The notes under the pieces: model-generated
What the model was told of the DNA's origin: nothing
Database searches by the model: none
Seen by the model: the letters and a program-made list of their open reading frames with translations, nothing else
Position numbers and translations under genes: made by a program
From: Histomonas meleagridis
Taxonomy: Eukaryota > Parabasalia > Tritrichomonadida > Dientamoebidae
Direction of reading: 5' to 3'
Length of the DNA: 64,000 bases
Assembly (NCBI GenBank): GCA_020186115.1
Contig: WSYJ01000156.1
Span: forward strand, 62,001 to 126,000
Part shown: positions 6,694 to 59,624 of the stretch, one piece after another
Layout: every line of letters begins with the position of its first letter
Numbering within the stretch: the stretch's first letter is position 1

Positions 6694-7947
6694 ATGTCGT
6701 CTCTTGTTCCATATCACTGGATGAACGATACCCACATCGCATTTGGTGTTGGTGCTATTGAAACAGTTAAGGAATATGTCAAAAAAGGCACAAAAATTTT
6801 ATGTATTGCTGATAATCAAAAGCACATATATAAAAGCGGAGCTAAATCCGATGTCGACAGAGTTCTTTCTGAAATTGGTGCCAAGTATACTTGGAGTGAA
6901 AAAATTGAAGCCAATCCAGACTACTCCACCATTTGTGAATTAATTTCAGATATCAGGAAGAATCCAGTTGATCTTCTTCTTACTGTAGGTGGTGGCTCTG
7001 CTATGGACGCTACGAAATTTATTTCTTCTGCTGTTAATCTTCCTTCTTCTGTTGAACCATGGAGCATTCTTCGTCATCCAGAACTTATCGGGAAGACCAT
7101 ACCAATGATTTCTGTTTGCACTCTTGCCGCAACTGGTTCTGAGTGGAATGAGCGCTTTGTAATATCTCGCCGCAGCACAGGCGAAAAAGTTGCAGGCGCA
7201 AATCCGCACAACTTTTTCAAAGTATGTTACTTGGTCGGACGGTTATACCGAACGACCGTTTATCCATGAACTAACTCATAGCTTTCTGTTTTAGACCCAC
7301 GCTATACTCTTACTGTTCCAGAACGTCAGACATGCAACGGCCTCTTTGATTCTTATTGCCATGTCATGGAAGAGTACATTACCGGTCATTTTGCACCTAT
7401 GCAAGATCGAATGAGTGAAGGTGTTGCCAAAACAATCATTGAATTAGCACCAAAATTACTTGAACATCCAAGTGATTTGAACTTCCGTGCAACAGCTATG
7501 CAAACATCATCAATGGCTCTTAATACTCTTCTTCAAACAGGCACAATCTCTTGCTGGGGAACACACCGAAGCTCAATGATCCTTACTGCAAAGTATGGAA
7601 TGGATCATGGCCAGTCACTTGTACCAATTCTTGCAAATGTTTGGAAACGATTCTTCGATGTCAAGAAATTCAAGCTTGCACAAATGGCGGACCGCGTATG
7701 GGAATACAAAGGTTATGGCACCGTCGATGACAAGGCCAAATACTCAATTGATAAAATGCAAGAATTTGCTCGCATGCTCAAATTGAAGTTGACAATCAGC
7801 GAATACACACACGAAGCACATCCGGAGCAAGCTGTGAAGGATATGGTGGAGTACACTTGGGACATGATGGGAAGGAAGCCGTTTGGCGAAAGAGGAATCA
7901 TCAAATCAAAGGAAGACCTCGAAGTAATATACTCAAATTCGTTCTAA
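6694..7947 (+). CDS. Iron-containing alcohol dehydrogenase (YqhD/butanol dehydrogenase type), spliced
   Basis: Two exons, 6694-7221 and 7282-7947, give 397 residues, the normal family length. The enzyme would reduce aldehydes to alcohols with NAD(P)H in fermentation. Visible motifs: nucleotide-binding GGGSAMDATKF; metal ligands Asp and His in GLFDSYCHVMEEY; His in WGTHRSS; and His in YGMDHGQSLVPIL. These are the one Asp and three His of group III dehydrogenases. Splicing restores FFK to LSVLDPRYTLTVPERQ, which matches the VLDPxYT-TxPxRQ segment of the family and fixes the junction. The ATG at 6694 (MSSLVPYHWMNDT) is chosen because the upstream in-frame part has no ATG. The bacterial flavour fits lateral acquisition, but the intron shows it is fully domesticated. 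Confidence 0.92.
7222..7281 (+). other. 60-bp spliceosomal intron in the alcohol dehydrogenase gene
   Basis: It begins GTATGTT and ends ACTAACTCATAG, the trichomonad 5' splice signal and fused branch-point/3' splice signal. It also contains an imperfect GC-rich hairpin at about 7232-7256 (GGTCG...CGACC). Removal restores an alcohol dehydrogenase frame with no gap in the family alignment, so the call rests on both signal and homology. Confidence 0.95.
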
Positions 7948-12880: not shown

Positions 12881-14627
12881 TTAAATGTTTTTTTGATAAT
12901 TTTGAAGTAATTGAATTAATTCATCATAATTTTTAGAGGTTGCAATCATAAGTGCTGTTTGAAATGTTTTATATAATTTCCAAATATTATTTAGAAATAT
13001 CAAATTATTAAAATAAATTTTAAACAATATAAATAATTATCACTAGCATTAATATCAATTCCTTCTTGTTCAATAAGTAATTTAACTGTTTCAATTTTAT
13101 TATTTCTAGCTGCCCACATAAGTGCTGTATTAAATAATATAAATAAACTCCAAATATTAGATTGAAATATCAAATTATTAAAACAAATTTTAAATAAAAT
13201 AATAAAATATCTTTAGTATTAATATCAATTCCTTTTAGTTCAAGAAGTAAATGAACTATTTCTCTGTGGTCACACATCGATGCATACATAAGTGCTGTTC
13301 TAAATAATTTAAATAATTTCCAAATATTATTTAGAAATAAAAAATTATTAAAATAAATATTATTTTCAGCATTAATATCAATTCCTTTTTGTTCAAGAAG
13401 TAATTTAACTATTTCTGTATGACCTTTATCAGATGCATACATAAGTGCTGTATCAAATAATTTAAATAATTTTTAAATATTATTTTGAAATATCAAATTA
13501 TTAAAATAATCATTAAATAAAACAAATAAATATCTTTAGCATTAATATCAATTCCTTCTTGATCAAGAAGTAATCTAACAATATCTGTGTGACCAAATTG
13601 AGATGCAGCAATTAATGGAGTCCAAAATTATTTAAATAAATTCCAAATATAATTATGAAATATATGTTCCAAATAAAATATATTAATCTCTTTAGCATTA
13701 ATATCAATTCCTTCGTGCTTAAGCAGTAATTTCGCAATTTCAGGTTCTTTTTCAATAGCTGTTGAAAGGGCAGTATGAAGTTTTATAAACAAATCATGAA
13801 TAATATATTATAACAAATTATTATTAAAATAAAATTTAAATAAAACAAATAAACATCTTTTGCATTTATATCAATACCTTCTTGTTCAAGTAGTAATTTA
13901 GCAATGTCAATATGACCACATTCTGATGCTAAAATAAGAGGTGTTCTAAACAATTTGAGAAGAATTCACAAATGATTATATAAAGCAAAATTTTATGAAA
14001 ATTCTTTATCTCTTGTATTAATATCAATTCCTTTTTGTTCAAGAAGTAATTTAATACCATAAAAGTTTTGATTTATTACAGCAATTGTTAATGGAGCCCA
14101 AAACAATTTATATAAATTCCATATTATTATTATAAATATCATATTATTATTATAAAATTTTTATAGACAAAATAAATATCAAACAAAATAATAAAATATC
14201 TTTTGCATTTATATCAATATTTTTTTGATTGAGAAGAAATTTAACAAGTTTATTGTCATGTGATTCTTCTGCCATCCATAGTAGTGTTTGAAATTATATC
14301 AACAAAATCCAAATTATTTAATTAAATTTCAAGTTATTAATATATACATTATATAAAGTGAACAAAAGTCTTTTGCATTAACATCAATATTTTTTTGTTC
14401 AAGAAGTAATGAAACACATTCAATATTCTTATCTTTAAATGCTAACATTAATGCTGTTAGAAACTTTAAAAATAATTACCGAGTTTTGATATAAAATTTT
14501 AAGTTTTCTTAAATAATATCAAACAAATAGTTAAAACATTTTTTGCATTAACATCAATGTCTTTTTGTTCAAGAAGTAATGCAACACATTCAATAAAATG
14601 TATTTGGATAGCTTTCATAAGTGGTGT
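12881..14627 (-). repeat. Array of 11 ankyrin units with conserved AT-rich spacers
   Basis: Unit starts (high coordinate) include about 14627, 14458, 14288, 14102, 13944 and 13778. The spacer 5' side usually reads GATATTTATT. The 3' side is often AATATTTGGAAATTATTTA followed by an A/T-rich run ending TTATTT, one variable codon, then ACAGCACTT or ACACCACTT. The alternation ACAGCA/ACACCA encodes Thr-Ala/Thr-Pro of the ankyrin repeat, so the apparent 'CAG' is coding and not an invariant splice acceptor. Confidence 0.85.
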
Positions 14628-15870
14628 ATATTATAAATATAATAAATTCCAAATTTATAAAATCAGTTAAAACAGCATCTCTTTCATTAATATCAACTTC
14701 TTCTATTTGAAGAATGAATTTTATTGTTTCAATATTTCCAGATTCAATAGCTTTAAATAATAAATTTTTATACATTTTTTTATTCTCAATGAAATATTTT
14801 AAAAGATATGTATTTCCTAAGTATGCAATTTCTTTTAATATATTCACATTAATGTTTTTATTTTGCATTAAAAATGAAAAAATTTCATAATTATTATATT
14901 TGATACAAATTTTTTTCAGCATTTCATCCAACATTTCATTTTTATTTGAGACATCATCGCTTTGTATTATATCCTCTAGATCATGAATTTTTTTATCATA
15001 AAAATAATGAAAAATATTATTTTTACGAAACTTAATTGCTGTTTTATAGGCTTTTTTATATGAAGCTTTATTATTTTCACACAAATGAATAATTTCTATA
15101 TTTCCTCCGACAATTGCATATTTTAATGTATCTGCAATATTTGCACCATTTATTAATAAATATTTGAAACATTGTATTGATCCGAAAAATGCTGCATAAT
15201 CAATTAATGTAACATTTTCATGATTAATAAAGTCACATCTTTCATAAAGTGATGGTTCAATTGTTTGATTAAAATTAAATTTCGCTTGTGTTGATATGTT
15301 TTGAAATTTTTCGATTTCATCATTTCGTATTATTTTGGCAATTTCATTTGTGTTGACTCCTTCTTTTATTAATTGTTTATGAAGTTTCCAATTATCTTTT
15401 GATAACTCATTGATGTTAGCCAAAAATTGATATTGAAATGGAAGAGGTATAACTTGTGAGATTTTAAATGTTTCTTCAATAGTAAGATGATGTGCAAAAT
15501 AGTATGATAACCTTTGATAACCATTGAAATCAAACTCATACTGAACTAATCCTTGTTCAATCATTTGTTCATATAAACAATATGATTCTTGGGAAAATAT
15601 GTTGCATAAATAGTTTGCAAAAACTTCTATAATTGTTATGTCATTTTGTATTTGTTTATCAATGTAACAAATAAACTTTATATATAAATTTGGATCTGAC
15701 TTTCTTATTACAAACGTTATATAAATTAATTTACAAAGAAGAATATCAAAAGTAAGTGGTAAACTAGAATCAAATAGATTTATGATAGATTGAGCGGAAG
15801 TTTCAAAATTTTCTTCATTCAACCCATAAATCGTGGATTCCAAGCTCGTTAGCATTTGTAGTTCGTTCAT
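12881..15870 (-). CDS. DUF3447/ankyrin-repeat protein in one-repeat-per-unit format
   Basis: The ATG at 15870 (MNELQMLTSLES) opens a ~397-residue N-terminal part. It includes the DUF3447 signature ELSKDNWKLHKQLIKEGV, IAKIIRNDEIEKF, ERCDFINHENVTLIDYAA and degenerate ankyrins. From about 14677 downward the gene becomes 11 ankyrin units of about 30 codons each (pattern T-A/P-L-M...EIVKLLLEQKGIDINAKD). AT-rich spacers separate them, and the period is roughly 145-190 bp. Every unit is open. The last unit ends in its own stop at 12881 (LLQNYQKNI). The spacers contain stops and change frame, so a protein would require their removal. They lack GTATGT/ACTAAC signals. Either these are unconventional introns or the tail is not translated; intact units favour the first. 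Ankyrins bind proteins; no specific role is known. Confidence 0.7.
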
Positions 15871-16350: not shown

Positions 16351-16662
16351 AAGAAAGATATCCAAACTTTTTCTCAAGATGAAAAATAATTTTATTTATT
16401 TTCATAAAGAATCTTCTTCAGAAATTTGTTTTATAGCTGATTACCAAAAATATATTTTTAATTTTTCTTAAATTTATTACAAAAGTTTTAGTTAAATGAA
16501 TATATTGCCAAACATTTATCATAAAATTGTTTGAATGGATATATTTTGGTTAGAGACAGAAAAACATTTTATGTAACTTCAAACAGCACTTTTATCACAA
16601 AAAAAATGTAAACTATTTATTAATTGACTAACTTTGCCCAACTTATTTCGAGGTTCCAATTA
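16346..16662. other. Intergenic, upstream of the first Stealth gene
   Basis: AT-rich. The last ~40 bases (TTGACTAACTTTGCCCAACT, from 16624) are nearly identical to those upstream of the second Stealth gene, so they belong to the duplicated unit and may be its promoter/leader. Confidence 0.45.
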
Positions 16663-17844
16663 ATGTCGCGACGTTCCAAACCAAATTATTTCTTCATTTT
16701 CATCTTCGCTTGTTACGTTTGTATTCTTACGTTTAACAAGGAGCCAACAGTACAGTTCCAAGCAACATCATCACAACTGATCAATGATCATCCAAAAAAT
16801 TCTTCATCAACAACAGATTCTTCTCCAATTTCGCCACTTCCAACGCCAACGCCACGAAATCCCGATGACATTAATGTGGACATTGTCTATACATATGTTG
16901 ATGGCGATGATCCAGTTTGGAAAGCGAAGAAGAAACGAACTGAAATACAATGCGGAAAGAACACAAACGAGAAATTAGACAAAGCGCGTTACATTAACAT
17001 CGAAGAGATTCGTTACTCGCTTCGAAGCGTCGAATTATTTGCGCCGTGGGTACATCACATATTCATTGTTACTGATAACCAAACGATTCCATTTGTGAAA
17101 CGGAATCATCCGAAGATTACATACATTGATCACACGCAAATTCTTCCGAAGTTTGCATTGCCAACGTATAGTTCAAATGCAATTGAACACGGAATATTAA
17201 ACATTCCGAATCTATCCGAACATTTCATATATCTGAACGACGACTTCTTCTTTTCACGGCCAACAACGAAATGGGAATTCTTCGATAAGGAAACACATCT
17301 TCCAATTATCTATGCGAAGAAGAACAATTGGTACAACGTGCATCGACAGTATAATGTATTTAAACATTCGAATATAAATGATAAAGACGGCGATGAATAT
17401 TGGGCTTCGTTACATTACACAGTTAGCGCTTGCACAAATAAAACAGGTGTCCCACCAAAAGGAGAAGTGCCGCATACAATGATTGCGTTGTCTTTACCTT
17501 TAGTCAGGAAGATGAATGAATTATTCAACAATGAAATCAATCAAACACTAAAGAAACACTTCAGAAGTTTCCCCGACTTCCAATTCCAGCCGCCGGTAAT
17601 GCAAACATGTGTAGCGTATAGAGATTTATGTAAATACGTGGAATTGGAAGGAAGCGCTTTATACGATAATTCGCGTTTCTTTTATTACAAAGGAAGAGAT
17701 AACCCGTTCGAAGGAATAAATCCAAAAAATTCGCGATCAATTTGCATTAATTCTGCGTTAGGTGTCACTGAAGAATATTATAAAAATGCAAAGAAATTCT
17801 TAGAAAGTTTCTTATCGAAGAAATCAAGTTTCGAATCAGATTAA
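16663..17844 (+). CDS. Stealth-family sugar-phosphotransferase, copy 1
   Basis: 393 residues from ATG 16663 (MSRRSKPNYF). Residues 9-24 form a signal anchor, giving a type II membrane topology in the secretory path. A Pro/Thr/Ser linker follows. Stealth CR1 is at about 70-88 (VDIVYTYVDGDDPVW). CR2 starts at about 109 (YINIEEIRYSLRSVELFAPW), continues through IFIVTDNQ and YIDHTQILP, and ends with HFIYLNDDFFFSRP. CR3/CR4 include NVHRQYN, VPHTM and CVAYRDLCKY. The family moves hexose-1-phosphate from a nucleotide sugar onto a glycan (bacterial capsule enzymes, animal GlcNAc-1-phosphotransferase). Here it would modify surface or lysosomal glycans. The tandem paralogue starts at 18607. The 3' ~240 bases are almost identical between copies, suggesting gene conversion. 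Confidence 0.92.
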   Translation: MSRRSKPNYFFIFIFACYVCILTFNKEPTVQFQATSSQLINDHPKNSSSTTDSSPISPLPTPTPRNPDDINVDIVYTYVDGDDPVWKAKKKRTEIQCGKNTNEKLDKARYINIEEIRYSLRSVELFAPWVHHIFIVTDNQTIPFVKRNHPKITYIDHTQILPKFALPTYSSNAIEHGILNIPNLSEHFIYLNDDFFFSRPTTKWEFFDKETHLPIIYAKKNNWYNVHRQYNVFKHSNINDKDGDEYWASLHYTVSACTNKTGVPPKGEVPHTMIALSLPLVRKMNELFNNEINQTLKKHFRSFPDFQFQPPVMQTCVAYRDLCKYVELEGSALYDNSRFFYYKGRDNPFEGINPKNSRSICINSALGVTEEYYKNAKKFLESFLSKKSSFESD

Positions 17845-18606
17845 ATATTATAATATTAATTTATATATATTAAATTTTCAAAAATTAATTGATAACAAAT
17901 TGAATATAAAAATTGATAGCTTACTTGAAAAGTGTGCGCGAACAATTTGCATCAAAATTGTATTCAAATTTTCTTTACTTGATGGAAACCGTTAAAATTT
18001 GGGCAGACGGTTTTTATAATGGTTGGAATTGGTTTTGGCTTTGGTTTTAGTGACAAGTCAGTGGATTTTCTCTCCTTGACTTAATAACACACAAGAACTA
18101 AGGATGCTTCAACATATATTATGGTGGATTTAAAATTATGACCAAAAATTTTGATTAATTTCAGAGACACAAAAATAATATGAGATGAATTATTACATCT
18201 TATTGTAATGTCTCTTGTAGTCATAATATCATAATATAAAAAGAATAAGAGAATTAAAAATTTTCAATTGAGAAATGTGTTAAAAAAATTCGGTAAAATT
18301 GAATTAAATGGATAACAACAACACTGTGCGTTATTTGCTATAGATAAGGATCGTCAAAACGTCGAGTAATTTGAAATATATTGATAATGAATTTCGATCA
18401 CCAAAATAATTTCTTTTTATAACCCTTAAAAAGTGTTTATCATCAATATCATCAATGTGTGAGTATATTTTCACCTTTAAAAATCGAAAATTAAATAATA
18501 TTTCTCTTGTAGATATTTGAACCACTTTCCAGTTTCCATTTGAACCAATTTGTCACAGCTACAAATTGACTAACTTTGTCCAACTGATTGCTCAAGTTCC
18601 GTTTTA
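17845..18606. other. Intergenic between the two Stealth genes
   Basis: AT-rich, no gene. The final bases before 18607 repeat the TTGACTAACTTTG-CCAACT leader seen before copy 1. Confidence 0.5.
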
Positions 18607-19791
18607 ATGGTTCGTCGTTCCAAACCAAATTATTTCTTCATTTTCATTTTCGCTTGTTACATTTATATTCTTACATTTCATAAGGAGCCAACAGTCCAAT
18701 TCCAAGCGACATCATCAGATTTGATCATTCATTCACCAAAGAGTGACTCTTTAAATTTAGATTACAAGCCACAAACAGAACCTACGCCAACGCCCGAACC
18801 TAAAGATCCCAATGACATTGATGTAGACATTGTCTATACATATGTTGATGGCGATGATCCAGTTTGGCAAGCAAGAAAGAAGAAAGCGGAAGAACAATTC
18901 GGAATCAAGTCCAGTGCGAAATTAGACAAAGCGCGTTACATTAACATCGAAGAGATTCGTTACTCACTTCGAAGCGTCGAATTATTTGCGCCGTGGGTGC
19001 ATCACATATTCATTGTCACTGATAACCAAACGATTCCATTTGTGAAACGGAATCATCCGAAGATTACATACATTGATCACACGCAAATCCTTCCGAAGTT
19101 TGCATTACCTGCATACAGTGCATATGTAATCGAACACGGCCTTATAAATGTTCCCGGATTGTCTGAGTACTTCATATATTTGAACGACGACTTCTTCTTT
19201 TCAAGGCCAACAACGAAATGGGAATTCTTCGATAAGGAAACACATCTTCCAATTATCTATGCGAAAAAGAACAATTGGTACAATGTGCATCGACAGTATA
19301 ATATTTACAGACGTTCAAATATTAATGACGGTGACGGCGAAGAGTTTTGGGCTTCGATCCATTACACAGTTAGCGCATGTAGTAATAAGACGAGAGCGCC
19401 ACCGAGAGGCGAAGTGCCGCATACTATGTTTGCTTCGACATTGACATTGTCGCGTAAGATGAACCAATTGTTTACTTACGAAATTAACGACACGTTGAAG
19501 AAGCATTTTCGTATTTTCCCCGATTTTCAGTATCAACACGCGGTAATGCAAACATGTGTAGCGTATAGAGATTTATGTAAATACGTGGAATTGGAAGGAA
19601 GCGCTTTATACGATAATTCGCGTTTCTTTTATTACAAAGGAAGAGATAACCCGTTCGAAGGAATAAATCCAAAAAATTCGCGATCAATTTGCATTAATTC
19701 TGCGTTAGGTGTCACTGAAGAATATTATAGAAATGCAAAGAAATTCTTAGAAAGTTTCTTATCGAAGAAATCAAGTTTCGAATCAGATTAA
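18607..19791 (+). CDS. Stealth-family sugar-phosphotransferase, copy 2
   Basis: 394 residues, starting MVRRSKPNYFF. It has the same architecture as the upstream copy: signal anchor at residues 9-24, a variable linker rich in Pro and Thr, CR1 (VDIVYTYVDGDDPVW), CR2 with YLNDDFFFSRP, CR3 with NVHRQYN, and a CR4 region ending KKSSFESD. Divergence is concentrated in the linker and in the CR3-CR4 span (for example SVIEHGLINVPGLSEY-type and SNKTRAPPRG changes). The N-terminus, the core of CR2 and the last ~95 residues are nearly unchanged. Both copies keep all motif residues, so both are probably active. The different central parts may give different acceptor choice (inference). Confidence 0.92.
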   Translation: MVRRSKPNYFFIFIFACYIYILTFHKEPTVQFQATSSDLIIHSPKSDSLNLDYKPQTEPTPTPEPKDPNDIDVDIVYTYVDGDDPVWQARKKKAEEQFGIKSSAKLDKARYINIEEIRYSLRSVELFAPWVHHIFIVTDNQTIPFVKRNHPKITYIDHTQILPKFALPAYSAYVIEHGLINVPGLSEYFIYLNDDFFFSRPTTKWEFFDKETHLPIIYAKKNNWYNVHRQYNIYRRSNINDGDGEEFWASIHYTVSACSNKTRAPPRGEVPHTMFASTLTLSRKMNQLFTYEINDTLKKHFRIFPDFQYQHAVMQTCVAYRDLCKYVELEGSALYDNSRFFYYKGRDNPFEGINPKNSRSICINSALGVTEEYYRNAKKFLESFLSKKSSFESD

Positions 19792-24065: not shown

Positions 24066-25243
24066 TTTATTTTACCATTAATTAATAATGTTGGAGAGAT
24101 TGAAAGTAATGCATTCAGTAATTGACCTTTTTTAACATCAGTAATAATTGGAGAGTCAGTTGAAAATATAAATAGTGGAGCATTCGCATAATGTAAATTA
24201 GAATATATACAATTTCTAGAAAAATTAATGAGTGGAATTGGAGATGGTTTTTATGAATATATTTCATTAATTAATATTACAATTCGTTGTAATAACATTG
24301 GTGGTAATGCATTTTTGAAATGTACAGGACTTGTAACAATAACTTTAGATGTAGGCGTACGAAATATTGGATCTGATTCATTCAGAGGATGTACAAACCT
24401 TATGATTATTTATATACCAAGTTCTGTTTATTCGATTGGAAATCCATTTTTAGAATGTACAAATCTTCAATTTATTAATGTTTCAGAAGAAAATATTGAA
24501 TATTCGAATTATCAAAATGATGGCGTTTTATATGATAAAGAAATTACACAAATTATTAGTTATCCGAATGGGAAAAGTAAAACATTTGCAATTCCTAATT
24601 CAGTCACTTTTATTATGAATAATACTTTTGCAAGTTGTATTAATTTAGAAAGAATTTTTATTTGTGAAAATGTTAATTATATTATTTAATGGTTGTTCTT
24701 CATTATCAAATATTACAATTCCTGATACTATTATAGAAATTTATGACTTTGCATTTAATGGATGTAATTTTGTATATTTTAATATTCCTAAATCAGTTCA
24801 ATATATAGGTACAAAAGTTTTCAGTTATTGTAACAATCTTCAAAATATTTATGTATCAATTGAAAATGAATTTTATTCCAATTATAATAAAGATGGAATT
24901 CTTTATAACAAAAATTTAACGACAATTAATATTTATCCAATTGGAAAAAACATTGAAACATTTAGAATTCCAACAACAATTGAAACAATATGTGAAAGAG
25001 CATTCTATGGTGTACTCATTTAGTAACAGTTTTCATTATGAAAATGTCAACAAAATCGAAAGCTATGCATTTGGAGATCGTGCAAATTTGAAATGTATTT
25101 ATTATTATGGTGATATGGAACCAGAAACAGAATCCAATTCATTTTCAGGAGTTGGGATTTTTTTCTTATCACTAAATTTATTGATTGATCTTAGATATCT
25201 GAGCGAAGAGATCTACTCAAAAAAGATTACATACAAAATATAA
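24066..25243 (+). pseudogene. BspA-like leucine-rich-repeat pseudogene
   Basis: Repeats of the TpLRR/LRR_5 type (for example GGNAFLKCTGLVTITL, IGSDSFRGCTNLMIIYIPSSV, IYDFAFNGCNFVYFNIPKSV) run through three reading frames: 24081-24689, then about 24664-25023, then 24941-25243. Two in-frame stops occur near 24122 and 24189, and two frameshifts near 24.67 and 25.0 kb. No N-terminus or membrane anchor is seen. BspA-like proteins are the largest surface-protein family of trichomonads and bind host matrix and bacteria. This member is dead unless the breaks are sequencing errors. Confidence 0.85.
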
Positions 25244-33835: not shown

Positions 33836-34741
33836 TTAAACCGACTCAATTATGGCATCATCTTGACCTGTGTACTTCACCATGGTGTTCCATGCTTCAA
33901 GGGGAGTCATGTTTTGACCAGTTAGCTTCTTCAGGCTTCGATGATTCCAATAGGTATTGTACTCATTGATCGTTTCTTGGATCTTCTCGAGACTCCACTT
34001 AAATAATGGACCTCTAGCTCTCTCGATCGTAGACCAAAATCTTTCTATCTTCCCATTCTGCTGGGGAGTATAAGGGTGAGTACGGAATTCTTCTATCCCA
34101 TTTGCACTTAGAACAATTTGGAAAGGATTTCCAACAAACTCTCCACCATTGTCAATGGCGAGCATCTTTGGTCGAAACTGCACCTTGTTCAAAGCTCTCT
34201 CGAGTGCCTCGCTACAGAGTTTCGAATCCTTGCTTGCGAGAACTTCATAGTGCAGTAGAAAGCGTGTACGATCATCGATGAAGCCAAGGAGATAGAATTG
34301 ATTATCATCAATTCTAACATAGTGGATATCAGCATGCCATAGTTGCCCAGCATAACGAACAACAAAGAGGCTATTGTGCTCATTAGGTTTCTTCGGTGGC
34401 TTGTGGTAGTTAAATAGGTTCTGCTCTCCGAAAAACTTTCGAACATTCCATTCAGTGGCTGAAAATCCCTTCCGTTTGGCAACTCCAGCAACTCGCTGAT
34501 ATCCGGCACCATGGTAGTCGCTCTTGTATCCTTGGATGTAGCTGATCGTTTCTTGACTTGCATTGTTCGCAGGTCTTCCTCTTCCTGGAATTGGGATATT
34601 GGCTTGTTGGCATATGGCTCTGAGTCTCTCTCTCCCAACAAAGAATATCTTCATGGTTGCCTCAACTCCATTCTCTTCAATTGACCTGCGGAATGCATCT
34701 AAATCAATTCCATCGCATGGATCAATAAGTTTCCTGAACAT
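33836..34741 (-). CDS. rve-family DDE transposase/integrase
   Basis: 301 residues, intact. N-terminal helical DNA-binding part (ERLRAICQQANIPIPGRGRP...YQRVAGVAKRKGFS). The catalytic triad is Asp138 (LWHADIHYV), Asp197 (LAIDNGGEFVG) and Glu233 (PQQNGKIERFW), a DD(35)E spacing. IDDRTRFLLHYEVL and YNTYWNHRSLKKLTGQNMTPLEAW complete the retroviral-integrase-type fold. Such transposases occur in bacterial IS3/IS481-like, Ginger and Maverick elements. The small size and long inverted ends point to a cut-and-paste element rather than a full Maverick. The open frame contrasts with the broken recombinase around it and suggests recent insertion. Confidence 0.88.
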   Translation of the reverse strand: MFRKLIDPCDGIDLDAFRRSIEENGVEATMKIFFVGRERLRAICQQANIPIPGRGRPANNASQETISYIQGYKSDYHGAGYQRVAGVAKRKGFSATEWNVRKFFGEQNLFNYHKPPKKPNEHNSLFVVRYAGQLWHADIHYVRIDDNQFYLLGFIDDRTRFLLHYEVLASKDSKLCSEALERALNKVQFRPKMLAIDNGGEFVGNPFQIVLSANGIEEFRTHPYTPQQNGKIERFWSTIERARGPLFKWSLEKIQETINEYNTYWNHRSLKKLTGQNMTPLEAWNTMVKYTGQDDAIIESV

Positions 34742-34943
34742 TAAATAAATATCTTATGAAAAAGTGATATTGATAAATCTCATATAATATATTAATTGTG
34801 ATTATGAAAAAGCGGGAATTATAAACCATTCAATACAGCTTTTTGTATGAACTCATATAACATTTCTATGTGGTCTATCAAAAAGTGGGGAAAGGTGAAG
34901 TCGTACGGATTTTCTCTTGCAACAGCTCATGGACCACTGGTCT

Positions 34944-35033: not shown

Positions 35034-35179
35034 CCGTATAATTTTAAATTATAAATTTTTGATATTGTTTCGAGCGATCATTTTTACCATAAAATGTCTA
35101 TCGTCCGCTATCGTAAATAACGTATTTTTACCGGGGCGTAGTTCATTTTATGAATTTGTGACCCCTTTTCACAAAAAAA

Positions 35180-35266
35180 TTTGGAATATGTTTTAATAAT
35201 TTTGGATATGTTTTAATAATTTGAAATATGTTTGAATAATTTGGAATATGTTTTAATAATTTGAAA
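35180..35266. repeat. Minisatellite derived from ankyrin-array spacer
   Basis: About four imperfect tandem copies of a ~21-base unit (AATTTGGAATATGTTTTAAT). The unit resembles the AATATTTGGAAATTATTTAA spacer of the ankyrin arrays and runs directly into an ankyrin-unit relic. Two more copies recur at about 35360-35405. Confidence 0.75.
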
Positions 35267-35530
35267 CAGCATCTTATATAGCAGTTAAAAATAATAATAT
35301 AGAAATAGTAAAATTACTTTTAGACAAAGGAATTGATGTTAATACAATATATATTCACATGAATAATTTGGAATATGTTTTAATAATTTGAAATATGTTT
35401 TAATATTATGATACAGCAATTCAAATCGCACAACAAAAAGGTTATAACATAATATAAAATTTACTTCGTGAAAAAGGTGCAAAAGAAAATTCTAATTCAG
35501 AATCTTGCTACTTGGCTTTCGATAAGTAAT
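35267..35530 (+). pseudogene. 3' relic of a DUF3447/ankyrin gene (two units)
   Basis: The unit from 35267 reads TASYIAVKNNNIEIVKLLLD then KGIDVNT. After a spacer of the usual kind, ATTATGATACAGCA begins a second unit, TAIQIAQQKGYNII, a stop, then LLREKGAKENSNSES. It is the decayed end of another copy of the interrupted ankyrin gene. Confidence 0.75.
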
Positions 35531-44926: not shown

Positions 44927-47485
44927 TTATTTATTAACACCGACAAGTGAGTTTTCTTTATCTTCTTCAAAGATTTCAAGTGCTTTTTCAATCGTATTGA
45001 TAACGTCATTCATCGCCATATGTTCATAATCCATTTCGATAACTTTCGTAAGGAATTTCACATAAGGTTCATTTTGATCAATAACAATTTTCGTTGGGAC
45101 TTCTCCTGTTTCATTATCTGCGATTTCTAATTCAATCGCTTTTTCTTTCGCTCGTTTGATAACTGAAGCTGGAAATCCTGCATGTTCTGCTGCTTCGATA
45201 CCAAATGACTTAGAGAATGGGCCTGGGCGTAATTGGTATAACATTACAATACCATTGTTATTAGTCGCATCCATATGACAATTAAATACATTCGGAAGTT
45301 CATTCGATAAATTACATAATTCATGAAAATGTGTCGCAAATAATGTAAATGATCCGATGTCTCGCGCTATTCGTTTAGAAATAGACCACGCAAGGCCAAA
45401 ACCATCGCTGCTGCTCGTGCTACGCCCTAAGTTCATCAACAAGAATTAATGACGTAGGCTTAGCATTCTGTAAAATAGATGACATTTCTGTCATCTCAAC
45501 TGCAAATGTAGACATATGAACCGAATCCCATGCTCCAACACGCGCATGAATAGATGTAATAATAGGGATGATGGCTTTGTGACATGGAACAAATGATCCA
45601 ATATGTGATAAAAATATACAAATTCCAACTGTTTTCATTAACGTAGATTTCCCTGCTGAGTTTGGTCCACTAATAATTAAAAATGATGAATTTCCTCGTT
45701 CCATTCGAATAGTATTAGGAATAAAATTAAAACAATGTTTCTCAATAAGAGGATGACGCGCTTCTTCTAATGAAATAAGATTAGACGTTTTATCAAATTC
45801 AGGACAAACATAATTATTAGAAATAGATACTTTCGATAATGATATAAAAACATCAATCGTCGAAAAGATATCATTTAATATTTGAAATATCGGGGAAAAT
45901 TCTTTTAATGTGCAAATTAATTCTTCAATAATTTCTTTTTGTTTGTTATCATATTCATTCTCATATTCAAAATATTCTTCAATAATTCGCTTAAGTTGAT
46001 ATGACGTAAAACGAACACCATCTTTCCGCGTTTCTAAAATCTCAAAATCTTCATGATTACGAATGTTTCGTTCTAAATTACGTGAAATTCGAAAATAAAA
46101 TGTTTTCATATTATTACTTCGTTCAAGTTTAACTTTATCTTCTTCAATATTAATTTCATCGGATACATTTCGTCGAAGTTCTTCCATTTCATTTTGTTTA
46201 TCTTCCATTAATTGTGACGTGTTACCTAACGTTTCATCAAAATTAGGTTTAATCCGATAAATATGTTGTGGAATCTTATCAAAAATCAATCGTTTCTTCA
46301 ATAAGTCGTTGAACTTTATTAAGTTCTTCTTCAATATTTTTTATATTCATTAACAAAATTTTCAATCATTTCATTATCATTCGTTGTTTCTTCAAATATT
46401 TTCAAATCTTTAGATACAAGAACAATATCATATAAACGAACACAATCTTGTAATGTACTTTTGTTCTTTACAAATTTACGAATTAATCGTGAAATATCTG
46501 GAAGTTGTTTCATATGATTACTAATTTTAAGACTAACTTCTTGATGATTATTAAAATATTCGATAATTCGTTGTCGTTTCTCAATTTCTGTGATGTTTAA
46601 TAATGGCTGTTGTAAATATTGATGAAGTAAACGCGAACCCATCGGCGTAACACACTCATTAAGTAATTGGTAAAGTGACGTAGGCAAACTATTCTTTTTA
46701 TATGAATTATTCTCTGGAAAAATATTTAACGCATTAGTTGACGAATAATCTAATGTTAAAAATTCATCTAATGAAAACGTTTGATGAACAAATTCATTTA
46801 AATTAATATGTAAATTATTAACTAACGCTTTCATACTTTTACTATTCGGAAATTTATCAATTTCAACATTTTTAACACTTGAAACTTCTTTATATGGAAT
46901 TTCAAACTTTTCACTAATAACTTTCATATTAATTAATATTTCAGGTGGAATAGAATAAAATAAAAATTTCACTCGGCATCGTTTGTGTAATTAAACTTTC
47001 AAAATGGTTTAAACTTGAATTATCATAAAAATTCAGTGGTTGAAATTGTAAATAATGTAGGATCACAACATGATGCATCAAATAAATATTCTTCATTCCG
47101 AAAAATTACAAGAAATTGATAACAAAAGTGAAGTGGTGGAAAGATCTAAATCACTATTCATCAAATCAATAACTTGCGAAATATCACCTGGTGACGCTTC
47201 AACGACTTTATTCCATTCATTACTTTCAAACTCGTACAACTCAACTGACGTTCGGTTGTAAAGTAAAAGATCTCGTAATAATGAAACATATAACGTTTCT
47301 GAAATACTAATATAATGTCCTGTTTTATTTTGTGTTTCTTTAAGTGAACCAATCGACCTTAAATACTTTTGTGCGATAACTTCTGCGTCTTCTTCAATCG
47401 CGTAATAACTACCTCCTTTCTTATAAAAACGAATAGTTCGAGGTTGTTCCTTTGGAAGTTTTTTTAATTCTTGAATATCAATCAT
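44927..47485 (-). CDS. MSH2: MSH2-like mismatch-repair ATPase, left arm copy, frame-interrupted
   Basis: About 850 codons. N-terminal MSH2-type domain (IRFYKKGGSYYAIEEDA...SISETLYVSLLRDLLLYN), core lever (TPMGSRLLHQYLQQPLLNIT), and the C-terminal ATPase: Walker A GPNSAGKST, FVPCHKA, ARVGAWDS, Walker B LILVDEL followed by a region homologous to GRSTSSSDGFGLAW, and FATHFHEL. Eukaryotic MSH2 usually has GPNMGGKST; here Ser-Ala replaces Met-Gly. The frame is broken by one extra base in A/T runs at 47101-47105, 46962-46966, 46337-46342 and 46281-46285, and by an extra T at 45428. At each of these points the right-arm copy is in frame. Either the gene is dying or these are sequencing errors. Confidence 0.85.
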
Positions 47486-47732: not shown

Positions 47733-49292
47733 TTAAATAGCAATGCTAATAAATTTTGCCTCCTGTGCATCGTTTTCATCTGTTTTTTCAGGCACCACAA
47801 TCATGTTTAATTTATTTTCTTGACTATTAAAATTCATTTCGATTGCATAACAATTATCATCAATTTGTATCTCGTTAATTTTCTTCGAGTCATCCCATAT
47901 CCGTACTTTCCCGTCGTTGCACCCGACAAATAACAAGCGACGATAATCGTTCGTCTGTAAGATCGATGTTATGCAATTTCCTGTTTCGAGGAGCTTCTTC
48001 ACCTCGAAGTCTTTTCCAGGCTCATGCACACGTTCCCACATTCGAACTTTCCCGTCCTCCGAACCAGAGAAGAAGAAGTTGTCCAAGAACGGGAATATGT
48101 TACTAATACGTTCTGTGTGTCCATAAACTTTTGAAGTACATTTTCCATTTAAGTTATATACATTAATTTCTCCTTGATTTGTGCCAACAATTAATCGATC
48201 ATTAACAACATCCATACATGAAATCTCTTCTTGAAGAACAATTCGCCTCTTTGCTGGTCTTCCTTTAGTAAAATCGATTTGCTCTTTATCAAGTGTCATT
48301 ATATAATTTATATAATTTTTATCTTTTAATATTCCTTTATCGACTGAATCAATGAAATTTTTCTCGAACAGAAACACATTCGATGATATTGAAACGATAA
48401 TAAATTTGTCATTAAAGCATAAAAAAGATTCTTCCACCACAAGTGGAGATATAAAACATGTATCAACACACTCAAGTTGTCCCATTCCAACACATGCGAA
48501 CGCACGAATTCGGACATCGCCTTGTAAATATATTCGTTTTGCTAAGCTGTCATATTTGATCGATGTGACTTTGTTGAAGAAACCTGTGGGATATTCTTTA
48601 TATTTATACGATATAACATATCGTGAATCAGAAAGATTTAAATAACTACATATTAGTGAACCATCAGGATCAAATGTGCCAACTTCGAAATTATCGTAAA
48701 TTGGAATTTCGTTAACTTGAGGGTTCCGCTTTTTAATTGGTAGGTTTCTAAGTGGAACAGACATAGGTTGATATTGATGTTGTGGTGGAGGTGGAGGTGG
48801 TGATGATGAACGTTGATAATTTACTTGAGGTAATGGAATGGGACTTTCACGATTATTGATACCCTCAATCATTTGTTGAGGAAAAATTTTGTGATATAGA
48901 ATGCCAGGCATAACTGGATAACCTTGATGTGAATTATTTTTATATGTCAATGTTTGTAGCAAGTTGTTAGATTTGCCGATTGTGACCATTGGTAAGTTGC
49001 TTGCAACAAATCCGGGTTGAAAACTATTACTGAACTTAAGAATATTACTTAATTTTGCTATTTTTCTGTTTTTATCTTTGTCTTTGTGGGTTTCATTATT
49101 AAACCGACCTTGGACACGCTTTTTTGTCCAATATTCACTGTCAATTTTTTGAAGCTCTTCAAGACATTGATCAACAATACACATTCTTCCGCTTGAATAG
49201 CTTGGGTTTGCATGATAAAGTGGGTAATATTTGCTAATAATTTCGTTTTCCTCTGTTGTTGGCTGATGTCGATTGTTTTGAAGCTGAATCAT
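47733..49292 (-). CDS. Myb-like/WD40 protein, copy A
   Basis: 519 residues. The N-terminus (ENEIISKYYPLYHANPSYSS...YWTKKRVQGRFNNET) looks like a Myb/homeobox-like helical DNA-binding domain. A linker with a run of prolines follows (SSPPPPPPQHQ). A region from about 200 (FEVGTFDPDGSLICSYLNLS, YPTGFFNKVTSIKYD) leads into WD40-type repeats, clearest in HTERISNIFPFLDNFFFSGS, EDGKVRMWERV and LLFVGCNDGKVRIWDDSKK. Only three or four repeats are obvious, so a full propeller would need divergent blades or a partner. It is head-to-head with copy B, about 100 bases between ATGs, and an M5-like CCTTT lies just before this ATG. Function is unknown. Confidence 0.8.
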   Translation of the reverse strand: MIQLQNNRHQPTTEENEIISKYYPLYHANPSYSSGRMCIVDQCLEELQKIDSEYWTKKRVQGRFNNETHKDKDKNRKIAKLSNILKFSNSFQPGFVASNLPMVTIGKSNNLLQTLTYKNNSHQGYPVMPGILYHKIFPQQMIEGINNRESPIPLPQVNYQRSSSPPPPPPQHQYQPMSVPLRNLPIKKRNPQVNEIPIYDNFEVGTFDPDGSLICSYLNLSDSRYVISYKYKEYPTGFFNKVTSIKYDSLAKRIYLQGDVRIRAFACVGMGQLECVDTCFISPLVVEESFLCFNDKFIIVSISSNVFLFEKNFIDSVDKGILKDKNYINYIMTLDKEQIDFTKGRPAKRRIVLQEEISCMDVVNDRLIVGTNQGEINVYNLNGKCTSKVYGHTERISNIFPFLDNFFFSGSEDGKVRMWERVHEPGKDFEVKKLLETGNCITSILQTNDYRRLLFVGCNDGKVRIWDDSKKINEIQIDDNCYAIEMNFNSQENKLNMIVVPEKTDENDAQEAKFISIAI

Positions 49293-49392
49293 CCTAAAGG
49301 TGATTTTGTCAAATTTCTGATAGGTTTCTAAGAAACATTGGATTTATTAAAATTTTTACTGAATTTTTGTCAGGATAAAATTTTAAAATTAA
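49293..49392. promoter_or_regulatory. 100-bp bidirectional promoter of the WD40 pair
   Basis: It separates two divergent ATGs. The minus side has CCTTT (49296-49300), the M5 start-site element of T. vaginalis, 3 bases before the ATG. The plus side has only AT-rich sequence and no clear Inr. Confidence 0.5.
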
Positions 49393-50982
49393 ATGGCAAA
49401 AATGTCAAAATATCTTCGAAGGGGATCCCCGATGACACAGGCCAAGAACAGACATAACGATTCCCAAGCGGAAAAAGATATAATACAGGAGTTTTATGCT
49501 CAATATGATGAACATGACAACTACTCAAGTAGCCGTGATAGTATTGTTGATAACTGTTTAACCAAACTAAAACAAATAGACGATAATTATTGGACAAAAA
49601 AGCATGTTCAAGAACGTTTCAATAGTATAACATATAAAAGGAGAACTGTGAAGGTTGCTAAAATGGGAGATAGTTTTTTGACAAATTTTCAACACGGCTT
49701 TGTTATACGTCCACCACCGATTGGGATCGATATTAATGCATTGGGGAACAGTCGTTTTCCAAGTCTAGGCATAACTCATAATCAAGGGTATCGTCTTATC
49801 CATATGAACACAGTTCGTCCTGTGGGTGGCCTAGAAAACGGTGTTTGTTCATCGTCAAGTAGTGATATTTCGGGTATCTCTAGGGCTTCTCCAAAGTCTA
49901 GTAGTATTCTATCCAACTTAAATTCTCCTGAAATTCCATTACCATCACCTCCACCACCGCCATCTCCTCCTGTTGTCCAATCCCGCGCCATGCCTATCCA
50001 ACGTATAAATTCCCAAGTTAGTGAAATTCCAATCGAAGGAGATTTCGAAACGGGGACATTTGATTCTGACGGGTCGCTTATATACAGTTATTGTAATCTC
50101 AGTGATGCACGGTATGTTATTTCATATCGCTGCAGGGAATATCCCACAGGATTCTTCAACAAAGTCACGTCGATCAAATATGACAACTTAGCGCGACGAA
50201 TATATTTACAAGGCGATGTTCGAATTCGATGCTTCACCATTGAGAATGAAGCCCTTCGTTGTGTTGACACATGTTTTATCTCACCCACAGTCATTGAAGA
50301 ATCGTTTTTATGTTTTAACGACAAGTTTATCATCGTATTAATCTCATCCACCATCTTTTTATTTGATAAATTCCCCGAATACATACAAAACGAAAGAGTA
50401 TTATTAGACGAAAATACTTATTCGAACTTTATCATGACATTAGAAAAGAAAGAAATCGATTTCACGAAAGGACGACCCGCCAAGAAGCGAATTGTCCTAC
50501 AAGAAGACATCTCGTGTATGAACGTTGTGAACGATCGAATAATCATTGGCACGAAGCAAGGCGAAATTAACATATACAACGTAAGTAATGGAAAATGCAC
50601 ATCGAAACTTATCGGACACACAGAACGTATTAGTAACATATTCCCGTTCTTGGACAACTTCTTCTTCTCTGGTTCGGAGGACGGGAAAGTTCGAATGTGG
50701 GAACGTGTGCATGAGCCTGGAAAAGACTTCGAGGTGAAGAAGCTCCTCGAAACAGGAAATTGCATAACATCGATCTTACAGACGAACGATTATCGTCGCT
50801 TGTTATTTGTCGGGTGCAACGACGGGAAAGTACGGATATGGGATGACTCGAAGAAAATTAACGAGATACAAATTGATGATAATTGTTATGCAATCGAAAT
50901 GAATTTTAATAGTCAGGAAAATAAATTAAACATTATCGCTACTGACGAAACAGAGGTAAAACACTTTTGTATTTCATGCTGA
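49393..50982 (+). CDS. Myb-like/WD40 protein, copy B
   Basis: 529 residues, paralogue of copy A in inverted orientation. It has the same N-terminal helical domain (DIIQEFYAQYDEHDNYSSSR...NYWTKKHVQERFNS), a Ser-rich then Pro-rich linker (PSPPPPPSPPVVQ), a conserved middle (FETGTFDSDGSLIYSYCNLS) and a WD40 end. From HTERISNIFPF onward the protein and DNA are practically identical to copy A over about 300 bases, whereas the N-terminal third is only about half identical. It ends HFCISC instead of copy A's longer acidic tail. The sharp change in similarity points to recent gene conversion between 3' ends. Confidence 0.8.
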   Translation: MAKMSKYLRRGSPMTQAKNRHNDSQAEKDIIQEFYAQYDEHDNYSSSRDSIVDNCLTKLKQIDDNYWTKKHVQERFNSITYKRRTVKVAKMGDSFLTNFQHGFVIRPPPIGIDINALGNSRFPSLGITHNQGYRLIHMNTVRPVGGLENGVCSSSSSDISGISRASPKSSSILSNLNSPEIPLPSPPPPPSPPVVQSRAMPIQRINSQVSEIPIEGDFETGTFDSDGSLIYSYCNLSDARYVISYRCREYPTGFFNKVTSIKYDNLARRIYLQGDVRIRCFTIENEALRCVDTCFISPTVIEESFLCFNDKFIIVLISSTIFLFDKFPEYIQNERVLLDENTYSNFIMTLEKKEIDFTKGRPAKKRIVLQEDISCMNVVNDRIIIGTKQGEINIYNVSNGKCTSKLIGHTERISNIFPFLDNFFFSGSEDGKVRMWERVHEPGKDFEVKKLLETGNCITSILQTNDYRRLLFVGCNDGKVRIWDDSKKINEIQIDDNCYAIEMNFNSQENKLNIIATDETEVKHFCISC

Positions 50983-58172: not shown

Positions 58173-59624
58173 TAAATGAAATTAAAAAGAATTGAATTTA
58201 ACCATATGGAAAATTGAGTTTATTATTATTTTTTTTTTAATACTGATAATTATAATAAAGATTGCACACAATGATATCAATATTTTTTGATATTTCATTA
58301 TTTTGTTTAAAAACAGTGACCCGCTATAAGTTATATGAGTAACATTGTTTACACAAATATCAGATTAGATTTCGTGGGAGTCACTCTCTATGGTTATTCC
58401 AAAAGGTGTGTTGGATACAATTTTTTGTAAAACATTTTGAAGACCAGAAAAGTTTGTATACAAAGGCTTGACGGTTTTTAGCTCATGTTTTGTGCCAAAA
58501 AGATGTGATACTCTGTTTATAACTATTATTCATTATCAGATGTATGAAAATAGTGATTACTCATGGGCACATATAATTTATATTGATACATAACACATGC
58601 ATTATTGGGAAAATGCACTTAAAATACCTTCCTATAGGACGTGCTCGGATAAATAAACGGTCAAAAACTGCACGTTAAAATAATGAAAATTCATTTTTTT
58701 CCATGCCTTTTCAAGAATTGAAATAAAATGATACATTACATAAATCTATATTTTAAGTGTGTTTGTTTAAGGTAAGTTTTAGATGGTAATATTCAATGTT
58801 GAAAATCCGAGTCTACTTTCTCTGAATTTTTTTTTTTAAATTGATTAATCTTATCTAAATTTTATGCAAATATCTCAATACCTATGAACTGAACTCAAAA
58901 TAGACATTGCAACTTATATACCAAAATAAAATCAAAATCATAATAAGCTGAAGAATGCTTATAATTTCCTGAACTGAACATTGAATTAACCAATAACCGT
59001 CACAAATCAGACAACCTAGTGGACCGTTAAAAATATAATTGTAGTGTTTTTATTTCAATACTTTATGTGGATACGATTAAAATATACTGATTTTTTCTAA
59101 AATAAAACAGAAATACCTATATCGAAAATTAATTTATAAACTAATATATGCTATTAAAGAATATAACTATTTATGTATATTATAATTTACTAAAATAATT
59201 AGAAATTATAAGAAAAATCGATCCGAGCATGTCCTTTCCGATAATTTGCAAATTGTTCATACCTTTCAATTTTAAAAAGTGCCATACGTTCACAATTGTT
59301 TCAGTTTACTTATCTTTTTGTTTCTTTATTTTGCTTTAAATCAAAAGAACTATTACAATAATTTTTCAATGCGTTCACATCCGAAAAATGTTTACATAAA
59401 ATTTTATATAATATTCTGTTGGAAAATGCTGTAAACTCGTTGCCACCAGCATATGGTCGTAAACCAACACAAAAATTTACGACACCATAAAAAATTGAAC
59501 CATTGTATGGTCGTAAAACAACTTTTTGAATACATGTGAACTGGCCAGTTCCTTTTTACATCCCAATTGAAATTTCAGAGGGTAAACAAATTGTTAATTC
59601 AAAAACTGAGCTTGGTTGTATGCC
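58173..59624. other. Long intergenic region with orphan promoter block and repeated motifs
   Basis: No gene. 58636-58677 repeats the promoter block of the armadillo-like gene (12110-12150), including an M3-like TGACCGTTT-type word on the minus strand, but no open frame follows. The word ATCCGAGCATGTCCT occurs at 59221-59235. TATGGTCGTAAA occurs twice (about 59453 and 59510), with an inverted variant between them. Confidence 0.55.

Follow-up and report, generated by a model that had tools for sequence, protein, structure and literature searches.

Two interrupted ankyrin genes and their family

The stretch of 64,000 nucleotides (nt) analysed here, referred to as the window, lies on contig WSYJ01000156.1 of the parabasalid Histomonas meleagridis (positions 62,001 to 126,000) and carries two ankyrin genes, gene A and gene B, which are interrupted by spacers composed of AT-rich 17-nt elements and single codons. 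Gene A (15870-12881, minus strand) is composed of an open N-terminal part followed by 11 ankyrin units, with AT-rich, stop-bearing DNA before each of them. As a first-pass annotation had described, the N-terminal part is continuous, all 11 units are open and the last one closes with a stop codon; the stops in the spacers, which in order measure 46, 77, 77, 97, 60, 77, 63, 77, 60, 77 and 77 nt, are confirmed as well. The N-terminal open frame (14590-15870) covers 426 codons, tail included, and the units region read straight through contains 45 stops. Gene B (55265-58173, plus strand) shows the same layout of open N-terminal part, ankyrin units and AT-rich spacers. Both genes exceed the Pfam cut-off for Ank_2 (27.3 bits), and the cut-off for DUF3447 (PF11929, 26.9 bits) is exceeded by gene B and just missed by gene A (scores in Table 1).

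The genome searched was that of the virulent strain of H. meleagridis (43.28-Mb assembly, 121 contigs). Gene A has 103 matches in its own genome, and 30 loci were fetched. Of 3,015 candidates for its N-terminal part 98 were scored, and all 98 match. A 36-base spacer core occurs in 3,738 copies genome-wide (1,851 forward, 1,887 reverse, up to 3 mismatches), as compared to none for a reversed control. Because of these matches and cores the family must be regarded as large, probably some hundreds of genes as estimated from 3,738 cores at about 11 per gene, and, together with the identical layout of gene B, they show that the spacer layout is not due to chance. Sixteen further loci, the next N-terminal matches in order, added 15 arrays; one locus (L052) yielded none.

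Fetched loci are labelled L001 onward. They overlap one another in the early unit and spacer counts and in the set used for the ratio of nonsynonymous to synonymous differences (pN/pS); junction, triplet-codon and element statistics leave out L001, L017, L020, L023, L024 and L057 together with identical junctions. Since units were located in stop-to-stop fragments, 276 units lack stops by construction, and the assessment of openness relied on large gaps between units. Among 455 units (overlapping loci counted twice) there are three large gaps, two of which hold intact low-scoring units; one unit, in L029, is truly broken. A metagenome-derived protein of a relative, P0006, which is at most 60% identical to the H. 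meleagridis genome, shows one continuous junction (VMF) and then spacer-like residues, and this suggests that the relative shares the elements. Other families were considered as carriers of the elements and rejected: about 123 of 133 kinase matches are full-length and stop-free (listing judged by eye), kinases being almost free of such breaks, and a leucine-rich repeat (LRR) gene of the window has single-base breaks instead.

Spacers composed of 17-nt elements and single codons

Beyond what the first-pass annotation had noted, spacer lengths are quantised and the spacers are modular. Within each spacer AT-rich 17-nt elements alternate with single codons, as in GAT[17]AAA[17]GAT[17]GGA[17]xxx-ACA. 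The usual junction reads GAT [17] K/N/D/E codon [17] Y/D/N codon [17] GGA [17] x codon ACA GCA and holds four elements and three single-codon exons. Arrays of the gene A type have two to five elements per spacer, other genes up to 23, and element length is near-constant at 17 nt, rarely 18. The 'ATTTATT' noted earlier at the 5' edge of the spacers is present, and is the start of one such element.

This division into separate elements rests on the inner triplets, because they behave as codons. No stop occurs at triplet 1, 2 or 3 of 291 unique 77-nt spacers (44 loci), where column shuffling expects 7.6, 24.7 and 0 (about 32 in 3 x 291). Thinning to one entry per locus and triplet leaves 0 stops in 155 (5.7 expected) and 0 in 169 (15.6 expected), and zero stops were reached in only 0.03% and 0% of 3,000 shuffles. 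Triplet 1 is mostly N, K, D or E, triplet 2 mostly Y, D, N or W, and triplet 3 encodes Gly in 233 of the 291 spacers. The 42 spacers of 60 nt, which are without exactly the first element, contain no stop and have Gly in 36 cases. Triplet positions are three times more variable than element positions (0.24 vs 0.076).

The triplets also supply what the units are missing. Units between spacers have 31 residues and are without the turn codons (D-x-x-G-x-T), whereas in contiguous ankyrins of the same genome three further codons separate D from x (VDG, KDG, KNG, KAG and others); the contiguous relatives L039, L031 and L036 have the same three codons and zero elements. The spacer triplets provide exactly these three codons, Gly included, and complete a 34-residue repeat. 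In the script segmentation the codon directly before x is Gly in 8 of 11 spacers of gene A (40 elements) and 7 of 9 of gene B (34 elements). Elements abut by script in two spacers of gene A and one of gene B, where a 20-nt layout is also possible. A search for strong isolated element matches (14 of 1,578 in 290,102 bases, some antisense) led to L034, for which no near full-length paralogues were found. Eight of its nine junctions are 9, 26 or 60 nt long (9+17m), each leaving three codons (VDG, KFD, DEK, KDG, ENG, NEG, ENG, NDG; six of eight end in Gly), and the ninth (61 nt) comes after a unit that the profile truncated. One turn is written here with 0, 1 or 3 elements in a single gene.

These observations bear on the first-pass reading, in which each spacer is one non-conventional intron removed whole, inner triplets included, leaving 31-residue repeats. 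Gene A stays open with whole spacers left out (733 residues), and both spacer edges are well kept. However, the triplets are free of stops and rich in Gly, the same three codons are retained at the same place in contiguous relatives, spacer lengths step by 17, 20 and 3 nt, and junctions of 26 and 43 nt exist. We therefore consider removal as single introns very unlikely.

Spacer lengths follow the same modular plan. The first loci yielded 303 unique spacers, of which 219 measure exactly 77 nt and 41 measure 60 nt; indels are often not multiples of three, whereas units stay at 93 nt, rarely 90. All fetched loci together give 453 unique ankyrin junctions, of which 418 are at most 94 nt long. In 352 of the 418 the length is 9+17m, a fit expected by chance for 1 in 17, but the bulk of these fits is the single 77-nt class. 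Most of the other 66 fit another codon number (37, 57, 63, 74, 80) or one 18-nt element (61, 78); junctions of 12, 20, 46, 55, 68, 75 and 76 nt occur once or twice each, and some of these are ambiguous.

A second subfamily, recognised by eye in nine of the 15 further arrays, has spacers of 37, 57, 77, 97, 117, 137, 157, 197, 217, 237, 317, 357 and 457 nt. These lengths follow 17+20n (n from 1 to 22), with modules of one variable triplet and one 17-mer, for example ATATGTTTTAATAATTT. Translating such spacers could not preserve the frame, because they grow in steps of 20 nt. Of 169 triplets none is a stop (21.3 expected, pooled columns, spacers shorter than 140 nt), nor is any in the longer arrays, including the 457-nt spacer of L049 with 23 elements and 22 triplets. 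Among spacers of at least 117 nt, 22 of 25 fit 17+20n and three do not; one fit (L038, 197 nt) is by chance. The 77-nt class corresponds to n = 3 in this plan, with modules that have diverged, GAT [17] triplet [17] triplet [17] triplet [17] x. In L049 (457 nt), L042 (317 nt) and L047 and L048 (237 nt each), two units are separated by very long strings of modules with one codon each, expanded in 20-nt steps; the strings reach 22 codons and are rich in G, E, Y and R. Another ankyrin array, L058, has spacers from 37 to 266 nt, several outside both 9+17m and 17+20n, and represents either a third spacer type or misplaced unit ends.

Whole 17-mers reproduced at thousands of places, many without a run longer than three, are hardly explained by frame breaks from nanopore errors. 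The assembly is indeed nanopore-based, with a reported accuracy of 99.8% after Illumina polishing (PMC8529796), and other window genes show single-base frame breaks. Yet the units between the elements are almost never broken, so that an assembly artefact is already contradicted and we give it next to no credence.

Across the 38 most divergent spacers the element consensus is R T W T R T T T W A A T A A T T T. Of 521 distinct elements 397 start with A and 366 end in TTT. The consensus resembles GTATGT and ACTAAC without matching them. This resemblance to motifs of the host's introns (GTATGTT ... ACTAAC), most marked in the second subfamily, is suggestive and could be due to AT-richness. Element letters are kept no better than silent positions of conserved unit codons, and we see little constraint on them apart from length and ends. 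A search for the exact canonical intron motif pattern gave no match with a gap of 10-40 and one with a gap of 30-60, namely the window's own intron. In agreement with the first-pass annotation, two canonical introns exist in the window (Table 1), and the spacers carry neither the GTATGT nor the ACTAAC motif.

Changes among the units of gene A, gene B and L001-L030 concentrate at codons 1, 6, 9, 10, 12 and 13, and the remaining codons are nearly invariant, even at silent sites. Several of these codons coincide with variable positions on the binding surface of designed ankyrins. Hypervariable codons within a near-fixed remainder make up a natural repertoire resembling a designed ankyrin library. 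A dN/dS check on the units had been proposed earlier; with pN/pS at 1.09 to 1.16 for closer and 0.67 to 0.95 for more distant pairs its outcome is ambiguous, because the changes cluster at these codons. The arrays might alternatively be silent, with only the N-terminal protein being made and the units serving as donor cassettes or being decaying copies homogenised by recombination. Published models stop around the first spacer (P0013), and unit framework and spacers are similarly conserved, as expected from recent concerted evolution. Nevertheless, the units stay open apart from the one in L029, their changes cluster at binding-surface-like codons, and codon selection in the stop-avoiding triplets is hard to square with silence. 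We regard silent arrays as quite unlikely.

Candidate routes of element removal

We regard the 17-nt elements as a new class of intervening sequence and put forward a mechanism of removal as a proposal, both from genomic sequence. Ankyrin-turn codons, kept apart by AT-rich elements throughout a large H. meleagridis family, would be joined by removing the elements singly from RNA before translation, as ultra-short non-GT-AG introns, yielding a continuous ankyrin protein of approximately 769 residues for gene A. Excision from RNA one by one is in our judgement the probable route, and it is preferred because the intervals have to vanish in any number regardless of frame and can be lost exactly, as in the 60-nt class. 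The distinct intron class suggested by the first-pass annotation survives in part: an intron-like intervening sequence is the best reading and the spacers are untranslated as they stand, but one intron per spacer is not supported, since the triplets behave as codons. Because of the weak likeness of the element to GTATGTT ... ACTAAC, a spliceosome-derived route would be the first guess, and another machine is possible. A U6-like RNA that carries ACAGAGA exists; its 43.7 bits fall slightly short of the gathering score of 44. More tentatively, by extrapolation (3,738 cores x about 4), intervening sequences of 17 nt in the order of 15,000 may split ankyrin genes codon by codon and be removed other than by the GT-AG spliceosome reaction, either by a spliceosome re-tuned to A...U-ended 17-mers or by a separate RNA-excision machine with a 17-nt ruler.

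Several points weigh against RNA-level excision. None of the 521 distinct elements has GT-AG ends (77 start with GT, one ends in AG), and 3-nt exons flanked by 17-nt introns do not easily fit a spliceosome. U1 was not found among the 41 scored of 450 candidates. A record of the joined product, whether transcript or protein, was not seen: two X-joined unit queries retrieved general ankyrins only among the best 120 of 5,689 and 2,171 matches, and the H. meleagridis records P0013 and P0014 are without the array. Unit pN/pS is near 1. Two 68-nt spacers (L005 (+) and L011) would need a last element of 8 nt (AATTATTT) and break the 17-nt rule unless a codon is skipped, and one TGA occurs among the first 100 of 1,345 second-subfamily triplet matches listed genome-wide. 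Gene A without its 40 elements is open for 769 codons to its natural stop; however, it is also open with whole spacers dropped or with the cuts shifted by -2, -1, +3 or +4. Openness alone is thus not decisive, and the codon statistics carry the argument.

The elements could instead remain in the mRNA, with the ribosome bypassing them in hops of 17 nt. On DNA evidence removal and bypass look alike, and both the absence of splice motifs and the near-constant element length would suit bypass. In known bypassing the peptidyl-tRNA pairs anew with a landing codon that matches. In the Histomonas arrays elements follow many different codons (GAT, AAT, AAA, TAT, GGA and others) and usually end in TTT (366 of 521), so that no matched pair is seen. 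Moreover, four or more successive hops would be needed, each after a single codon, and we know of no precedent for this. Bypassing is in our view unlikely.

Further candidates were rejected. A GT(9)...ACAG splice of the 77-mer is out of frame and has the G in 74% only (partly by eye). In-frame translation of the spacer would suit the consensus, which has an open downstream frame, but stops occur in that frame in 75 of the 219 77-nt spacers (135 in the upstream and 219 in the third frame). A programmed -1 frameshift once per module fits arithmetically, but the slippery site is not kept and the third-element consensus has a stop (by eye). A conserved hairpin was rejected for the absence of covarying pairing among the top-ranked pairs of whole spacers in 208 unique 77-nt spacers; the proposed stem gives C-A 18, T-G 17, T-A 4 and C-G 153.

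Related systems, neighbouring features and significance

Parabasalid spliceosomal introns likewise split coding sequence in a trichomonad and are AT-rich, and some elements resemble their GTATGTTT start (second subfamily ATATGTTT). Introns of Trichomonas vaginalis (types A and B) are described as GT-AG introns of at least 23 nt, in which the 5' motif is extended and the branch site fused to the 3' site (PMC12316389). The Histomonas elements, in contrast, have 17 nt, start mostly with A, end mostly in TTT and stand in tandem between single codons; neither GT-AG ends nor GTATGT with ACTAAC fused to the 3' site are found in them. The ultra-short introns of Stentor coeruleus, 15-16 nt with mostly GU start and AG end (PMC9505925), are similar in their near-constant length and AU-richness, but are not strung with one-codon exons. 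For euglenid nonconventional introns no conserved GT-AG borders and a stable structure joining the ends are described (PMC6221363, PMC4770533). Lack of such borders is shared with the Histomonas elements, which are far shorter; the comparison, drawn by the first-pass annotation, fails in its sole testable feature, the covarying pairing.

Byp elements of Magnusiomyces mitochondria and phage T4 gene 60 contain short coding-sequence inserts bypassed on matched codons. These inserts are unseen in the finished protein, as the Histomonas elements would be; they are mitochondrial or phage, however, and the Histomonas elements are without matched take-off and landing codons. DUF3447-type trichomonad ankyrin proteins have N-terminal part and ankyrin units in common with the gene A family, but relatives such as L039 and P0017 are wholly or almost uninterrupted, and what is new in the gene A family is the 17-nt elements.

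Table 1. Coordinates of ankyrin gene parts, spacers and canonical introns in the window (el., 17-nt elements)
Feature	Position	Strand	Basis or reading
Gene A N-terminal coding part, incl. last continuous ankyrin unit (14677-14769)	14677-15870	-	open frame 14590-15870; Ank_2 40 bits, DUF3447 26.4 bits
Spacer 1, 46 nt, two el. (14651-14667, 14631-14647)	14631-14676	-	script segmentation; cut ambiguous, D-AVLG-YT or, by another cut, D-A-K-F-G-Y-T
Ankyrin unit 1	14538-14630	-	unit profile 60.5 bits
Spacer 2, 77 nt, el. 14521-14537, 14501-14517, 14481-14497, 14461-14477; codons GAT, AAA, GGT	14461-14537	-	script: N-DKG-LT
Ankyrin unit 2	14368-14460	-	unit profile 59.7 bits
Spacer 3, 77 nt, el. 14351-14367, 14331-14347, 14311-14327, 14291-14307; codons AAT, GAA, GGA	14291-14367	-	script: D-NEG-QT
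Ankyrin unit 3	14198-14290	-	unit profile 55.1 bits
Spacer 4, 97 nt, five el. 14181-14197, 14161-14177, 14141-14157, 14121-14137, 14101-14117; codons GAT, AAA, GAT, GGA	14101-14197	-	script: D-DKDG-WA
Ankyrin unit 4	14008-14100	-	unit profile 56.4 bits
Spacer 5, 60 nt, three el., two abutting by script (13988-14004, 13965-13981, 13948-13964)	13948-14007	-	script score -9.2, lowest of 11; K-C-E-R under 20-nt layout
Ankyrin unit 5	13855-13947	-	unit profile 65.7 bits
Spacer 6, 77 nt, four el., two abutting by script (13838-13854, 13815-13831, 13798-13814, 13778-13794)	13778-13854	-	script: D-KFM-HT; 20-nt layout equally in frame
Ankyrin unit 6	13688-13777	-	unit profile 47.1 bits
Spacer 7, 63 nt, el. 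13671-13687, 13645-13661, 13625-13641; codons GGA ACA TAT, GGA	13625-13687	-	script: E-GTYG-WT
Ankyrin unit 7	13532-13624	-	unit profile 62.9 bits
Spacer 8, 77 nt, el. 13515-13531, 13495-13511, 13475-13491, 13455-13471; codons AAT, GAT, AAA	13455-13531	-	script: D-NDK-DT
Ankyrin unit 8	13362-13454	-	unit profile 67.7 bits
Spacer 9, 60 nt, without first element; AAT, then el. 13342-13358, 13322-13338, 13302-13318; codons TTT, GGA	13302-13361	-	script: N-NFG-RT
Ankyrin unit 9	13209-13301	-	unit profile 59.6 bits
Spacer 10, 77 nt, el. 13192-13208, 13172-13188, 13152-13168, 13132-13148; codons AAA, GAT, GGA	13132-13208	-	script: D-KDG-NT
Ankyrin unit 10	13039-13131	-	unit profile 62.2 bits
Spacer 11, 77 nt, el. 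13022-13038, 13002-13018, 12982-12998, 12962-12978; codons AAA, GAT, GGA	12962-13038	-	script: D-KDG-QT
Last ankyrin unit (11) and stop codon	12881-12961	-	15.6 bits; partial unit closing in TAA
Gene B N-terminal coding part	55265-56449	+	open frame 55265-56488; Ank_2 37.7 bits, DUF3447 36 bits
Gene B spacer 1, 77 nt, el. 56450-56466, 56470-56486, 56490-56506, 56510-56526; codons CCT, AAT, TCA	56450-56526	+	cut by eye; outside the script's nine
Gene B ten ankyrin units and nine further spacers (34 el.), then C-terminus and stop	56527-58173	+	unit profile; script
Gene B nine spacers	56620-56696, 56790-56849, 56943-57002, 57096-57172, 57266-57342, 57436-57512, 57606-57679, 57773-57849, 57943-58019	+	script: D-DWG-FT, N-KKG-DS, N-YLG-DT, S-NSG-ST, D-YGG-WS, D-EYE-KT, V-QN-WT, S-ENG-YT, G-KDG-KT; in the 74-nt spacer three el. 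abut by script, which starting one codon earlier avoids
Third array, second subfamily, 17-nt el. (ATATGTTTTAATAATTT type), 20-nt steps around one ankyrin unit	35178-35409	+	20-nt tandem repeats, element scan, translation
Canonical intron	7222-7281	+	60 nt, ACTAACTCATAG
Canonical intron	61554-61624	-	71 nt, ACTAACACACAG

No N-terminal part was seen adjoining the third array. An integrase-core (rve) gene of a mobile element (33836-34753, minus) lies approximately 0.4 kb from it. The window further contains an inverted duplication, in which MutS-like copies (44927-46990, minus; 51920-54144, plus) and related repeat-protein genes (47733-49343, minus; 49393-50982, plus) face each other as pairs; the MutS-like copies, MSH4-type in our reading, both have frame breaks, at different places. 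The LRR gene (BspA-like, by eye; 24126-25240, plus) has apparent single-base frame shifts without 17-nt elements and is a pseudogene or an assembly error. A tandem pair of Stealth-domain genes (sugar-phosphate transferase type) lies at 16624-17844 and 18574-19791 (plus).

In a search covering part of the literature, no report of 17-nt elements or spacers in Histomonas ankyrin genes was found. Table 1 of the published H. meleagridis genome gives 573 introns (PMC8529796); if the proposed reading is true, thousands more would exist that are sought by no gene finder. Since a module of 20 nt consists of 17 nt and one codon, its gain or loss would change the protein by a single residue and leave the frame intact, so that loops could grow freely. 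If excised from RNA, the elements would be at or under the presumed size limit of the spliceosome, without end signals and with one-codon exons. The lower limit of splicing, or the existence of a different excision route, could then be put to a direct test in a protist that is in culture. If bypassed by ribosomes, they would represent nuclear translational bypassing at a scale unprecedented to our knowledge. Excision or bypass alike, a whole family of variable ankyrin proteins of this poultry parasite would be shortened in the databases.

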